A stretch of 10,220 bases of DNA from Candidatus Desantisiibacteriota bacterium. GTDB lineage: Bacteria > JACRDZ01. The notes beneath the pieces are model-generated. The model made no database searches, was not told where the DNA came from, and saw only the letters and a list, made by a program, of their open reading frames with translations. The translations under genes were made by a program, and so were the position numbers. Of this stretch, positions 1,452-6,040 are shown one piece after another (position 1 is the stretch's first letter; every line of letters begins with the position of its first letter). The stretch lies in contig JACQWU010000020.1 in the NCBI GenBank assembly GCA_016209155.1, forward strand, positions 1 to 10,220, written 5' to 3'.

Positions 1452-3091
1452 ATGTCTTTAAATTTTTTTTGGGAAATTATTGGAAAAATATCGATAATAT
1501 TGATTTCTATTTATCTTTTAACTCAGCACAAATGGTTTTATTATCTTTTTGCTTCATTAAATTCAAACTATTTAAAAATTTATTATAACACAATTTTTAT
1601 TATTCTGGGGCTTGCCGGTTTATTACTCTCAACGAATCTAAATGGTTTTATAATTAACAATATTCATCTTAGTATTGTTTTATCCGGACTTTTAGGGGGA
1701 CTTGATTCTGCTTTAATAACAACTTTTGCTCTTGATATTATTATTTTCATTTTTAATTTTAATCATCCTCCTCTCGGGATAATAATATCAACTTCTATAC
1801 TGGGAATATTTTGCGGTTTTTATAATAAAATTTATGATGTAAAACGAACCGAAATAAAAAAAATACTACCGATTATTGTTGTAACTTTTTTATTGCAAAT
1901 ATTGACTAATCTAATACGCTTAAAAGTAACTTCCTTTTCTATAACGCAAATATGGACGCTTTTATATAAAGAAATTTTAGCTATAATTATAAATATTGCT
2001 TCCGGTACATATATAACTTTAAAAATAATAAAAAATACTTTTAACAGCTATCAAAATATGGAAGCACTGCATGCACATGACACTTTAAAAATTGCCGACA
2101 AAACACTTCCTTATTTAAGAACTGGGCTTAATCCTGAAACAGCTTTAATGACCGTAAAATTAATTATGGATATTACAGATGTTGAAGCGGTTGCAATAAC
2201 CGATAAGGAAAAGGTTCTGGCTTTTGAAGGTATAGGTTCTGATCATCACAAAAGCGGAGCATATATATTAACAAGTTCTACAAGAAACGTGCTAAAAAAA
2301 GGGCATGCTTATATAATCAGCAATAAAAAAGATATTGGTTGTCCGGTTGAGGACTGCCCTTTGGTATCAGCGGTAGTAGCTCCGCTTAAATGTAAAAATG
2401 AGGTTGTCGGAACACTGAAATTATATCAAAGTAGACAGAAAGAAATAAATCCAAGTAAAGTTAGTCTTGCTATGGGACTTGCAAATCTTTTAAGTATACA
2501 GATGGAATTATCAGAGGTGGGAAAACTTGAAAAACTTACTGTTCAGGCTGAATTACGGGCATTACAAGCGCAAATTAATCCGCATTTTTTATTCAATACA
2601 CTAAATACTATTGCCAGCTTTTCACGCACTCAGCCTGATGAAGCAAGGCAGCTTCTAATTAAATTTGCTGACTTTTTTAGAAAAAAATAAAAAAAGATAT
2701 TGAGTCGAATACGTTAAATATTACAATCCCTGTTTTAATTTTGCAGCCGATAATTGAAAATGCAATTCAGCATGGAGTATCTCAAAAAATTGAAGGCGGT
2801 TGTGTTGAAATTATTTCTAAAATGCAAAAAGATTTTATTAAAATAATAATAAAAGATAATGGGATAGGGATTCCTCCCGGAGAATTAAAAAAAATACTTA
2901 CACCGGGATATGGAAAAGGGATGGGTGTTGGATTAAGTAATATAAATGACCGGTTAAAAATTATTTATGGGAAAGAATTTCAGGTTAAAATTTTCAGCGT
3001 ATTAGAAAAAGGGACTGAAGTTCATTTGCAAATCCCATTAGTAAGTATAAGCTATCAAATGGAAGCTTTCGGAAAAAAAATGAAAGTGTAA
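1452..3091 (+). pseudogene. lytS: LytS-family sensor histidine kinase, disrupted by internal deletion and frameshift
   Basis: The first frame (1452-2690, 412 aa) has a hydrophobic multi-span N-terminus of the 5TMR-LYT type (about residues 1-195) and a GAF-like domain (about 210-350) with the cysteine pair CPVEDCPL. It then has a LytS-type H-box, QINPHFLFNTLN, with phospho-acceptor His378. It stops at TAA 2688-2690. The ATPase part continues in the -1 frame from about 2681 to 3091: LQPIIENAIQHG (N-box), DNGIGIP, and GKGMGVGLSNINDRL (G-box). Joined across the A-rich junction, the protein goes straight from DFFRKK to KKDIESNTLNITIPVLI. The usual 35-45 residues between these blocks (the helix with LEEEL..YL.IEK.RF) are missing. 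So there is both a deletion and a frame change. All catalytic motifs survive, which points to a recent event, an assembly collapse, or an unusual recoded kinase. The cognate regulator follows at 3212. Confidence 0.82.
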
Positions 3092-3186: not shown

Positions 3187-3211
3187 AATGGTTATTAAAA
3201 AGGGGAAAATA

Positions 3212-3985
3212 TTGGAAATAAAAATTATAATTGTAGATGATGAAAAACCTGCCAGACAGGAAATATCTTTCTTGCTTGGTAAAATGAAAAATATTAAAAT
3301 TGTCGGAGTATGCGCCTCCGGGGAAGAGGCTTTAGCTCTTGCTAAAAAAGAACCGTTTGATGCTGTTTTTCTTGATATTCATATGCCTGCAATGAACGGA
3401 ATCGACCTTGCCCTAAGGCTTCAGGAAATTTCAAATTATAATGCATTAATAGTATTTATAACTGCATACGATGAATATGCTGTTTCTGCTTTTGAAACAA
3501 ATGCGATCGATTATATATTAAAGCCATTTGAAGAAGAACGGCTGCTTAAGGCTATTCAAAAAATAACAAAACTTTTGGAGAACAAAAATACCGCGTATAA
3601 TATAAATGACGGGAATACTGATAATAAACTTTTTAATATTGGTACTCTCATAAGGGACAAGCTTGTAGCTGAGAAGGGCGGGAAAGTTATATTAATAGAT
3701 ATAAATACAATTATTTATATTTCCACAGAAGACGGCGGTACGTTTATAAAAACATATGACTCTCAATATATAACAAAATATAACCTTACGCAACTTGAAA
3801 AAAGACTAACTCCAATGTCTTTTTTCCGCACCCATAGAAGTTTTTTGGTAAATTTTAATCATGTCATTGAGATTATCCCTTTTTTCAATGGCACATATAT
3901 GCTGCTTATGAATGATAAAGAGCATAACAAAATTCCAGTAAGCAGAATTCAGACAAAAAAATTGAGGCAAATTTTTGATATTTAA
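3212..3985 (+). CDS. LytTR-family response regulator (LytR/AlgR type)
   Basis: A cytoplasmic DNA-binding response regulator of about 257 residues. The receiver domain (about 1-120) has the acidic pair Asp9/Asp10, phospho-acceptor Asp55 in FLDIHMP, Thr84 and Lys104 in ILKP. A linker of about 35 residues leads to a C-terminal LytTR DNA-binding domain (about 155-257) with the typical FFRTHRSFLVN and PVSR motifs. The TTG at 3212 is preferred as start because AGGGG at 3201-3205 lies 6 bases upstream and the protein then opens MEIKIIIVDDEKPAR, as these regulators normally do. An ATG at 3188 would add 8 residues but sits at the edge of the palindromic repeat without a good Shine-Dalgarno. It is the natural partner of the upstream LytS kinase. 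The regulator is intact while the kinase is broken. Confidence 0.93.
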   Translation: MEIKIIIVDDEKPARQEISFLLGKMKNIKIVGVCASGEEALALAKKEPFDAVFLDIHMPAMNGIDLALRLQEISNYNALIVFITAYDEYAVSAFETNAIDYILKPFEEERLLKAIQKITKLLENKNTAYNINDGNTDNKLFNIGTLIRDKLVAEKGGKVILIDINTIIYISTEDGGTFIKTYDSQYITKYNLTQLEKRLTPMSFFRTHRSFLVNFNHVIEIIPFFNGTYMLLMNDKEHNKIPVSRIQTKKLRQIFDI

Positions 3986-4044
3986 TATATATAATATATT
4001 GAAACTTTTATGTATATTTTTTGTATTATATTATAGGAGCATAT

Positions 4045-4680
4045 GTGAACATAAGCGGCGATAAAGCAGAAGATCTGATTTTGGTTCAAGAATGCCTTAA
4101 TGGTGATAAAGAAGCTTTTAATAAACTCATAAAAAAATATGAATTGCCCATATACAATTTAGCTTTTAGAATGATGGGCTCTAATGAAGAAGCTCTGGAT
4201 GCTGCGCAGGAGTCTTTTTTACGTGCATATAAGGCATTGAAAAGCTTTCGTCTGGAATATAGCTTTTTTACATGGCTTTATACTATTTCTATTAATGTGT
4301 GCAGAAATTGCTTGAAAAGGAAAAAAATATTAAATTTTTTATCGATTAGCTCTTCTTCTAAACAGACAGAAGAGAATAATCATGCTGATATTGAGTTACC
4401 TGACAATAGAATGAATCCTGAAATCATTTATGAAGAAAAAAAACGATCAGAAATAATTCAAACAGCAATAATGAAGCTTCCTGATAAATATAAAGGTATT
4501 GTAATTGCAAGGTATGTGGAAGGCTTAGCCTATGAAGAAATAGCTAAAATAGAAAATATACCGCTCGGAACTGTAAAAACGCAAATTCATAGAGCAAAAA
4601 AAATATTAATACGCCATATAAAAAATGCAAAAAAGATGCATGATGATAAATTGGCGCATGGCATAATGAAAATAACGTAA
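4045..4680 (+). CDS. ECF-type RNA polymerase sigma factor (RpoE-like, sigma-24)
   Basis: A 211-residue group 4 sigma factor. Region 2 occupies about residues 5-85, with the DAAQESFLRAYKALKSF stretch that binds core polymerase and the -10 element, and a FTWLYTISINVCRN block. A variable linker of about 50 residues follows. Region 4 (about 140-195) has LPDKYKGIVIARYVEGL and the helix-turn-helix YEEIAKIENIPLGTVKTQIHRAKK. The start is GTG at 4045, with AGGAG at 4035-4039 five bases upstream; a TTG at 4021 in the same frame has no such site. The gene after it encodes a ZAS-type anti-sigma factor, the usual arrangement for a sigma factor held at the membrane until an envelope signal releases it. ECF sigmas are often autoregulated, but I could not identify a convincing promoter match in the 59 bp upstream. 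Confidence 0.95.
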   Translation: MNISGDKAEDLILVQECLNGDKEAFNKLIKKYELPIYNLAFRMMGSNEEALDAAQESFLRAYKALKSFRLEYSFFTWLYTISINVCRNCLKRKKILNFLSISSSSKQTEENNHADIELPDNRMNPEIIYEEKKRSEIIQTAIMKLPDKYKGIVIARYVEGLAYEEIAKIENIPLGTVKTQIHRAKKILIRHIKNAKKMHDDKLAHGIMKIT

Positions 4681-4737: not shown

Positions 4738-5433
4738 ATGAAAATGAAAACATGTGAAAAAATTCAAAATTACATAAATATTTATTATGACAATGCTCTA
4801 TGCGAAAAAGAGAAAAAGGAACTTTTTGCACATATAGAGCAATGTCATGATTGCAAAATATTTTATTCTGAACTGGAAAATATTGAAAAAGATCTGCACT
4901 CTTTACCCAAATTAATTCCTCCATCTGATTTCAGCAATAAAGTAATGCAGGCTCTACCTCAAAAATCACCCGGCATAGGATTAGGTGAAAAAATACATGA
5001 AATTTTCATGTCTCCCGTATCTCTTCGCTTAAATGCCGCACTGATAACAATTTTATTATTTTTTCTGGCATTACGTCCTAATCGTGAAGTTGTAATTAAT
5101 AAAACAACCGCGATAGCCCCTGAAACAAATAGCACTAATACTATGGATTTAAGTTTAGGCAGCCAAATTGTGAATACTAAATTTTATCTAAGTTTACCGC
5201 TTAACACTCCTATTCAAAGTGTATCAGTGGTTGGAGATTTTAATGACTGGAATGTAAATACTTTTAAGCTCAAATATAAAAGCGACGGAATATGGGAAGG
5301 GACATTTCCTGTTAGACCGGGTAAACATGAATATATGTTTGTAATAAACGGTGAAAAATGGATCCCTGATCCCAAAGCCCGTGAATATAAAGAAGATGGT
5401 TTTGGAGGTAAAAATTCAATACTTGTTCTTTAG
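4738..5433 (+). CDS. Membrane anti-sigma factor (zf-HC2) with extracytoplasmic glycogen-binding CBM48/E-set domain
   Basis: A 231-residue protein in three parts. Residues 1-60 form a zinc-binding anti-sigma (ZAS/zf-HC2) domain with the Hx3Cx2C signature His32, Cys36, Cys39, expected to bind the sigma factor encoded just upstream. A single membrane segment lies at about 96-112 (LNAALITILLFFLALRP). After a Thr/Asn-rich linker, residues 148-231 form an E-set/AMPK-beta-like domain. It contains SVSVVGDFNDW (Trp171), DGIWEGTF (Trp186), RPGKHEYMFVINGEKW (Trp208) and PDPKA. In AMPK-beta and CBM48 domains equivalent Trp and Lys residues bind alpha-glucans. With the N-terminus inside, this domain would face the periplasm and could be the sensor; that is inference. 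The ATG at 4738 is preceded by AAAGGGA at 4722-4728. The gene lies 57 bp after the sigma gene. Confidence 0.9.
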   Translation: MKMKTCEKIQNYINIYYDNALCEKEKKELFAHIEQCHDCKIFYSELENIEKDLHSLPKLIPPSDFSNKVMQALPQKSPGIGLGEKIHEIFMSPVSLRLNAALITILLFFLALRPNREVVINKTTAIAPETNSTNTMDLSLGSQIVNTKFYLSLPLNTPIQSVSVVGDFNDWNVNTFKLKYKSDGIWEGTFPVRPGKHEYMFVINGEKWIPDPKAREYKEDGFGGKNSILVL

Positions 5434-5470: not shown

Positions 5471-6040
5471 ATGAAAAAAATACTTAGTCTTATTATAATT
5501 GCATTATTGCTTGCTCTCTCTGCTCAAATACTTATAGCAGACGAAAAAGAAAATGAAATACGCAGGCTGGGAAGATATGTTAATACCGGCGAATCTGATG
5601 AACTTGTTAAATTTCTGCTTAAAGCAAAAGAGGATGGGCTGCCTATCGATGGAATGCTAAATAAAGTTAAAGAAGGTTCGGCAAAACAGGTTGAATCAGA
5701 AAAAATATTATCTGTATTATATGCCAAAAAAAGCTTATTGGAAAGAGCACGGATGCTTATAAAGGAAAATGAAAAAGAAGGTTTAAGAGTATGGGAAAAT
5801 GATCGGGAAGAAAGTATTGAAAAGCTGGCACAATCTTTAGAAGACGGAGTAGGAGCGCATGAATTGAAAGAATTTATCAAAAAAATTATTGAAAATAATG
5901 AGGATATTCGCTATCTGGTTCAAAGTTCATCTGCTTATGCCGCTATGTTAAGAGCAAAATTAGAACGTTCAGAAGTAAAGAAACTTATAACAATGGCTAT
6001 TGAAAAAAGAATTAATGCCTTGATGTTTTTAATAAATTAA
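5471..6040 (+). CDS. Secreted alpha-helical protein of unknown function (3' end probably frameshifted)
   Basis: I do not recognise the family. The 189-residue product opens with a signal peptide (Lys-Lys, a hydrophobic run of about 18 residues, likely cleavage after ILIA near residue 23). It continues as a charged, almost wholly helical protein with no cysteines and no enzyme motif. AAGGAG at 5456-5461 lies 9 bases before the ATG, a strong site. It starts 37 bp after the anti-sigma gene, so it is probably cotranscribed with the sigma/anti-sigma pair and may be a periplasmic partner or target. The reading frame ends at TAA 6038-6040 with an abrupt LMFLIN. In the -1 frame coding-like sequence continues to TAA 6103-6105. 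One extra T in the T5 run at 6026-6030 would join the two and give a protein of about 210 residues. Confidence 0.75.
   Translation: MKKILSLIIIALLLALSAQILIADEKENEIRRLGRYVNTGESDELVKFLLKAKEDGLPIDGMLNKVKEGSAKQVESEKILSVLYAKKSLLERARMLIKENEKEGLRVWENDREESIEKLAQSLEDGVGAHELKEFIKKIIENNEDIRYLVQSSSAYAAMLRAKLERSEVKKLITMAIEKRINALMFLIN

Follow-up and report, generated by a model that had tools for sequence, protein, structure and literature searches.

A zinc anti-sigma factor with a CBM48 ectodomain in an apparently undescribed ECF sigma operon

The window, the whole 10,220-nucleotide stretch of DNA analyzed here, carries an ECF sigma factor gene with an anti-sigma gene closely downstream, followed by a gene for an exported helical protein. 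The features are listed with the evidence for each in parentheses.

4021..4680, + strand: ECF sigma factor, SigW/RpoE-like, 219 aa as listed (Sigma70_r2, r4_2, NCBIfam)
4738..5433, + strand: anti-sigma factor with a zinc anti-sigma (ZAS) domain, transmembrane helix and CBM48, 231 aa (ORF call, Pfam, phmmer, hydropathy, AlphaFold model)
4753..4854, + strand: zinc anti-sigma domain core, residues 6-39, H32-x3-C36-x2-C39 (zf-HC2, RsiW match, motif)
5017..5073, + strand: transmembrane helix, residues about 94-112 (hydropathy 2.17; model helix 93-111; positive-inside bias of the family)
5164..5430, + strand: predicted periplasmic CBM48/AMPK-beta-like domain, residues 143-231 (Pfam, model, residue alignment)
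5471..6040, + strand: exported all-helical protein without a Pfam family, motif P-x9-E-G-x2-K (family alignment, model, linkage)

The product of 4021..4680 contains both Pfam sigma domains, Sigma70_r2 and r4_2, and its top NCBIfam match is SigW (E 3e-43, under that model's own cut-off). The start codon is more likely GTG 4045, which has AGGAG ahead of it at 4035-4039. Across 56 loci, we found no conserved RpoE/SigW-type promoter 5' of the sigma gene: a GAAC...CGT-type pattern occurred 4 or 5 times against 3.7 or 4.3 expected and was therefore not enriched. A TGAAAC-N16-tGTA-like stretch precedes the window's sigma gene, as judged by eye. Its spelling falls outside the GAAC...CGT-type pattern, so the count says nothing about it, and sigma autoregulation is neither shown nor excluded. 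Further upstream, a LytS-type histidine kinase (5TM-LYT, GAF, His_kinase; 1452-2690) is split from its ATPase domain (2741-3091), which points to a frameshift or an assembly error in that gene, and a LytTR regulator follows at 3188-3985. The window's source genome is incomplete (79%).

The ORF call places the anti-sigma gene at exactly 4738-5433 on the + strand, with a 231-residue product. Pfam zf-HC2 covers residues 6-39 (E 7e-6; 26.5 bits against a cut-off of 22.2), and the HxxxCxxC zinc motif is complete at H32, C36 and C39. Residues 6-76 match the solved RsiW anti-sigma domain (ASD) 5wuq in a phmmer search of PDB sequences (E 1.8e-4; 5e-8 with the family profile). A single hydrophobic helix at about residues 94-112 separates this domain from a C-terminal region in which CBM_48 (residues 160-207, E 3e-7) and AMPK1_CBM (residues 160-216, E 2e-6) both score above their gathering cut-offs, and which matches pullulanase, GlgB and AMPK-beta among PDB sequences. 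We built an AlphaFold model from four homologues. Its confidence is high only for the C-terminal domain, with pLDDT of about 80-94 from residue 141, and this domain superimposes on the AMPK-beta CBM with Z 12.6 and an rmsd of 1.8 over 80 residues (TM-score 0.83-0.85, by target length). These results bear out the zinc anti-sigma domain, the single membrane helix and the E-set/CBM48 fold proposed in the first-pass annotation, including the comparison with AMPK-beta that it had called for. With a zf-HC2 (RsiW-like) domain above cut-off next to an ECF sigma gene, and with the fold, the Pfam score and the W100 and W133 equivalents of CBM48 (AMPK1_CBM), the protein is, by the features tested, a ZAS-type anti-sigma factor with a CBM48 ectodomain. 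The K126 equivalent is missing, but that residue is not needed for CBM48 membership and is likewise absent from AKINbeta2 (PMC4032982).

In 58 of the 59 homologues, the helix is scored as membrane-spanning. Lys and Arg residues flanking it number 188 on the N-terminal side, predicted to be inside, versus 107 on the C-terminal side, and this positive-inside bias supports the N-in topology expected of a protein with a cytoplasmic anti-sigma domain. The CBM48 domain would thus lie outside, as had been proposed. By analogy with RsiW, RseA and RsgI, sigma release may proceed through regulated intramembrane proteolysis. All four genomes of the phylum have a gene for an RseP-type M50 protease, which proves little because such proteases are near-universal.

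The first-pass annotation had called for a survey of this architecture across phyla. The window's phylum is represented by four genomes. In the other three, the gene for the homologous anti-sigma factor (30-36% identity) likewise has an ECF sigma gene beside it and a gene for a similar exported protein after it; a sigma homologue lies immediately 5' of the anti-sigma gene in all four. A scan of named genomes recovered the same architecture, with an ECF sigma gene upstream, in MAGs of Nitrospira, Chitinispirillaceae, Gemmatimonadota, Aliifodinibius, Krumholzibacteriota, Eisenbacteria, Deltaproteobacteria and Myxococcales, so the operon is known from at least eight bacterial groups besides the window's own. 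Recurrence beside an ECF sigma gene in 4/4 phylum genomes and in many phyla argues that the architecture did not arise by chance. An anti-sigma family profile (E 1e-25 or better) matched 93/150 Gemmatimonadota genomes and 29/100 genomes of the Nitrospira phylum, 22 of the 29 essentially at full length and the rest in the CBM48 part only. The architecture is therefore common, and a CBM48 on the envelope side is not the oddity that it had seemed.

We then collected 80 anti-sigma loci: 4 from the window's phylum, 16 from the named genomes, 40 from Gemmatimonadota (a sample ranked by score, so that these are the better matches), 16 from Nitrospirota and 4 from the Krumholzibacteriota group. An ECF sigma gene is present in 77/80, and the three loci without one have only 39-232 bp of upstream DNA. 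Together with the Sigma70_r2/r4_2 gene upstream in the window, this confirms the adjacent ECF sigma factor of the first-pass annotation. The zinc ligands are retained in 5/59 anti-sigma homologues and the N-termini are short in many Gemmatimonadota; sigma binding is thus not assured in some relatives, which may bind sigma in a different way. Neighbor clustering over 57 loci detected no recurrent sugar enzyme beside the operon. It returned the module genes, shadow ORFs, neighbors shared by close relatives and a lipoprotein-like family near the operon in 8/57 loci (L014:6426-7178, L024:2569-4191 and six more), which looks like DUF4382. In one phylum member (L092:1-7400, genome G002), the operon immediately follows a row of type IV pilus/type II secretion-like genes for an ATPase, PilM/N/O-like proteins, a secretin-like protein and pseudopilins, and the order is the same in L093 (G003). 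Pilin-like genes lie downstream of the operon in L018.

The helical protein gene is found in 75/80 anti-sigma loci within scan range. Four of the five misses are at or near contig ends; in the fifth (L021), the helical protein gene itself is present, between the sigma and anti-sigma genes. Among whole genomes, the helical family occurs in 22/22 with the anti-sigma factor versus 0/22 without it, and it is absent from 60/60 control CBM48 loci. Copy numbers of the two families agree in multi-copy genomes (three and three in each of G012, G013 and G018), and two helical-family copies lie in or beside one operon at L208:1592-3322, L209:5293-7032, L153 and L154. The homologues begin with signal-peptide-like sequences. 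P58, E68, G69 and K72 are invariant in an alignment of 18 divergent members, and no Pfam family matches the protein. Its model is all-helical (pLDDT 91.5). Its closest PDB matches, at E 0.3 in Foldseek and at Z 7.0 to designed repeats in VIA, are not convincing, which does not prove that the predicted fold is new. In the window, the C-terminus of the protein is probably cut by a frameshift near 6015-6030 or by an assembly error in the MAG: homology appears to continue in another frame after about 6020, to about 6105. The anti-sigma factor had been read as a plausible one-protein glycan sensor; that reading is incomplete, and self-sufficiency is not supported, since every contig that extends far enough also encodes an exported partner.

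A second CBM48 gene, on the same strand, lies close by in 58/80 loci; its product resembles an outer-membrane barrel or is a small lipoprotein. The barrel-like form comes from Gemmatimonadota, Myxococcales, Aliifodinibius and Krumholzibacteriota loci, where an exported protein of 360-500 residues ends in the CBM48; Nitrospirota loci encode a small protein, with a lipobox in several. We call the larger proteins barrel-like on the basis of their signal peptides and strand-like alternation; beta-type alternation scores are positive in most and weak in several, and no Pfam beta-barrel model matches their N-terminal parts. In a tree of 87 columns, the outer-membrane CBM48s mostly cluster (88/84), and the CBM48s of the module are set apart weakly from others (87/80). 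The window's phylum yielded no second CBM48 on an exported protein. Apart from the anti-sigma factor, the 98% complete genome G003 encodes CBM48s only in enzyme-length ORFs, an HTH-CBM48 protein and a stand-alone CBM48. The operon core is therefore the sigma factor, the CBM48 anti-sigma factor and the helical protein, with the outer-membrane CBM48 frequent and not obligatory.

Other CBM48 arrangements were seen along the way. The XRE-type HTH-CBM48 fusion of G003 (L112:1258-1755) and the stand-alone CBM48 (L115:1474-1758) are presumably cytosolic and retain the K126-type lysine, and each gene lies directly 5' of a GT4-like glycosyltransferase gene; G002 is similar. G001, from the same phylum, encodes a ParA-type ATPase with a C-terminal CBM48 (L111:1462-2622, - strand). 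Proteins of about 600-1400 residues with several tandem CBM48s, possibly exported, are encoded at G009:C14:20345-34646 and in many genomes of that phylum.

Work on AMPK-beta1 has shown that W100, K126, W133 and N150 contact carbohydrate (PMC4032982); glycogen binding is lost in the W100G and K126Q mutants and reduced in W133L (PMC6274970). We aligned the window's domain to AMPK and found that W171 corresponds to W100, W208 to W133, F222 to L146 and N226 to N150, whereas M200 replaces K126. Across 57 anti-sigma CBM48s, W100 is kept in all, W133 in 55 and N150 in 43, and the L146 position is Phe or Tyr in every one. By contrast, the K126 position is Lys or Arg in 0/57 of these domains, compared with 60/67 other CBM48s from enzymes and stand-alone proteins; it is Lys or Arg in 2/24 barrel CBM48s. 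As read from the alignment, the anti-sigma face keeps its aromatic platform and has one ligand residue systematically changed. Three tryptophans at positions that looked conserved had been singled out in the first-pass annotation. W171, W186 and W208 are indeed invariant in 4/4 members of the phylum, but W186 corresponds to no AMPK ligand residue. The proposed check of carbohydrate-binding residues likewise gave a divided answer, with the W100 and W133 equivalents kept and K126 replaced.

Carbohydrate binding by the anti-sigma CBM48 is plausible on these grounds, and glucan binding by a face without K126 has a precedent in plant AKINbeta2, which binds starch without K126 and N150 (PMC4032982). 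Specificity for alpha-glucan or glycogen is not supported, given the loss of the K126 equivalent in 57/57 domains and the effect of K126Q on AMPK-beta1 (PMC6274970). Because the K126 equivalent is never Lys or Arg, a non-glycogen glycan or a protein appears a likelier ligand than glycogen.

Several known systems resemble this operon. RsgI anti-sigma-I factors of Clostridium thermocellum carry extracellular CBM3, CBM42, PA14 or GH10 domains and signal through regulated intramembrane proteolysis (PMC12203970), and the window's protein shares with them a single membrane pass, an extracytoplasmic carbohydrate-binding-type domain and, we infer, the proteolytic step. RsgI differs in its N-terminal domain, its autocleaving periplasmic domain and its sigma-I partner, whereas the present system combines a zinc anti-sigma domain, an ECF sigma factor, CBM48 and an exported helical partner in diderms. 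No RsgI model matches the window's anti-sigma factor in Pfam up to E 1. RpoE-RseA-RseB (and RsiW) share the order of sigma factor, single-pass anti-sigma factor and exported third protein, as well as the RsiW-like N-terminal domain. Here the third protein is predicted to be all-helical, has no RseB-type Pfam match and thus does not qualify as an RseB homologue, and the ectodomain is a CBM48. Since the defining features of both are absent, we reject membership in either family; the system may work like RsgI or RseA/RseB yet belongs to neither. FecI/FecR and Bacteroides SusC-type ECF signaling also pair an ECF sigma factor with an anti-sigma factor, and many relatives of the window's operon co-encode an outer-membrane protein, but that protein bears a C-terminal CBM48, and no FecR domain or TonB-dependent receptor was matched by Pfam in the anti-sigma factor or the co-encoded barrels examined. 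Finally, AMPK-beta shares the fold and the W100, W133 and N150 equivalents, and differs from the window's domain at K126 (Met), L146 (Phe) and T148 (Gly) and in being a cytosolic kinase subunit rather than the exported side of a membrane protein.

We propose, with confidence and doubt in about equal parts, that this is an envelope-signaling operon in which the anti-sigma factor takes a non-glycogen glycan input together with its helical partner. The RsiW-like domain and the gene order suggest that an inner-membrane anti-sigma factor would hold the upstream-encoded ECF sigma factor through its cytoplasmic zinc domain. The periplasmic CBM48 would be the input, binding a cell-envelope glycan, not plain glycogen, through a W171/W208/F222 platform, and binding would be coupled to the exported helical protein. 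This protein, RseB-like in position and export, may shield the anti-sigma factor from proteolysis or present it to it. When occupancy by the ligand or the partner changes, regulated intramembrane proteolysis (RseP-type M50) would gain access to the anti-sigma factor, and sigma would be freed. In many relatives, the second CBM48 at the outer membrane, on a barrel C-terminus or a lipoprotein, probably reads the same ligand or passes it on. The domains, the fold, the operon, its strict association with the helical protein and the conserved residues are shown here and speak for this mechanism, as do the RsgI (PMC12203970) and AKINbeta2 (PMC4032982) precedents. Against it we count the loss of K126, the lack of recurrent sugar enzymes and of a conserved promoter, the near-universality of M50 proteases, the loss of zinc ligands in most homologues and the lack of an outer-membrane CBM48 in the window's phylum.

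Some of the same evidence would suit a CBM48 that is a protein-docking E-set domain for the helical partner and, in other phyla, for the outer-membrane CBM48 protein. The signal would then be a change in the complex during envelope assembly or damage, with no sugar sensed. All 57 anti-sigma CBM48s and 22/24 of those on barrels have lost the K126 equivalent, the helical protein is very tightly linked, and sugar enzymes do not recur nearby. Pure docking need not require the two stacking tryptophans and the aromatic residue at the L146 position, which are nearly always kept, and AKINbeta2 shows that starch can be bound without K126 and N150 (PMC4032982). We regard docking as a serious but somewhat unlikely explanation.

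A self-sufficient alpha-glucan or glycogen sensor governing glucan use, close to the first-pass reading, draws on a fold and closest sequence relatives that are alpha-glucan binders (AMPK-beta, a pullulanase and GlgB). Loss of K126, an operon without recurrent sugar enzyme genes alongside and the exported partner encoded on every contig that extends far enough make it improbable. We consider it similarly doubtful that CBM48 merely sets the periplasmic size for protease access, with the helical protein and outer-membrane barrel as regulated products. ECF regulon products are often co-encoded, and a small, compact ectodomain would fit such gating of intramembrane proteolysis, but a mere spacer would not keep specific ligand-face residues, and the fold stays the same from phylum to phylum although the linker and the N-terminus differ.

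Returning to the glycan-input reading, we offer a broader version tentatively, as one that is rather less probable than not. The operon would be an undescribed, widespread envelope-sensing module in which the ECF anti-sigma factor in the inner membrane and a protein in the outer membrane bear matched CBM48s and are bridged by an obligate exported helical protein, so that the cell would compare or relay an envelope glycan, or contact between its two membranes, across the periplasm. Both CBM48s lack the canonical lysine and would for that reason share a non-glycogen-type face.

We found no paper on an ECF anti-sigma factor with CBM48, or on this operon, in the open-licence literature; this is no proof of novelty, and the signaling operon is apparently undescribed. 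For many ECF sigma factors no signal is known; here, a sensor domain is defined and has a binding face that can be tested. The set of sigma factor, CBM48 anti-sigma factor, helical protein and, often, outer-membrane CBM48 is recurrent and clearly delimited in Gemmatimonadota, Nitrospirota and other phyla, and it points to an uncharacterized protein family that is always co-encoded with the CBM48 anti-sigma factor. It would extend the RsgI principle of carbohydrate modules on anti-sigma factors to the ECF systems of diderm bacteria.
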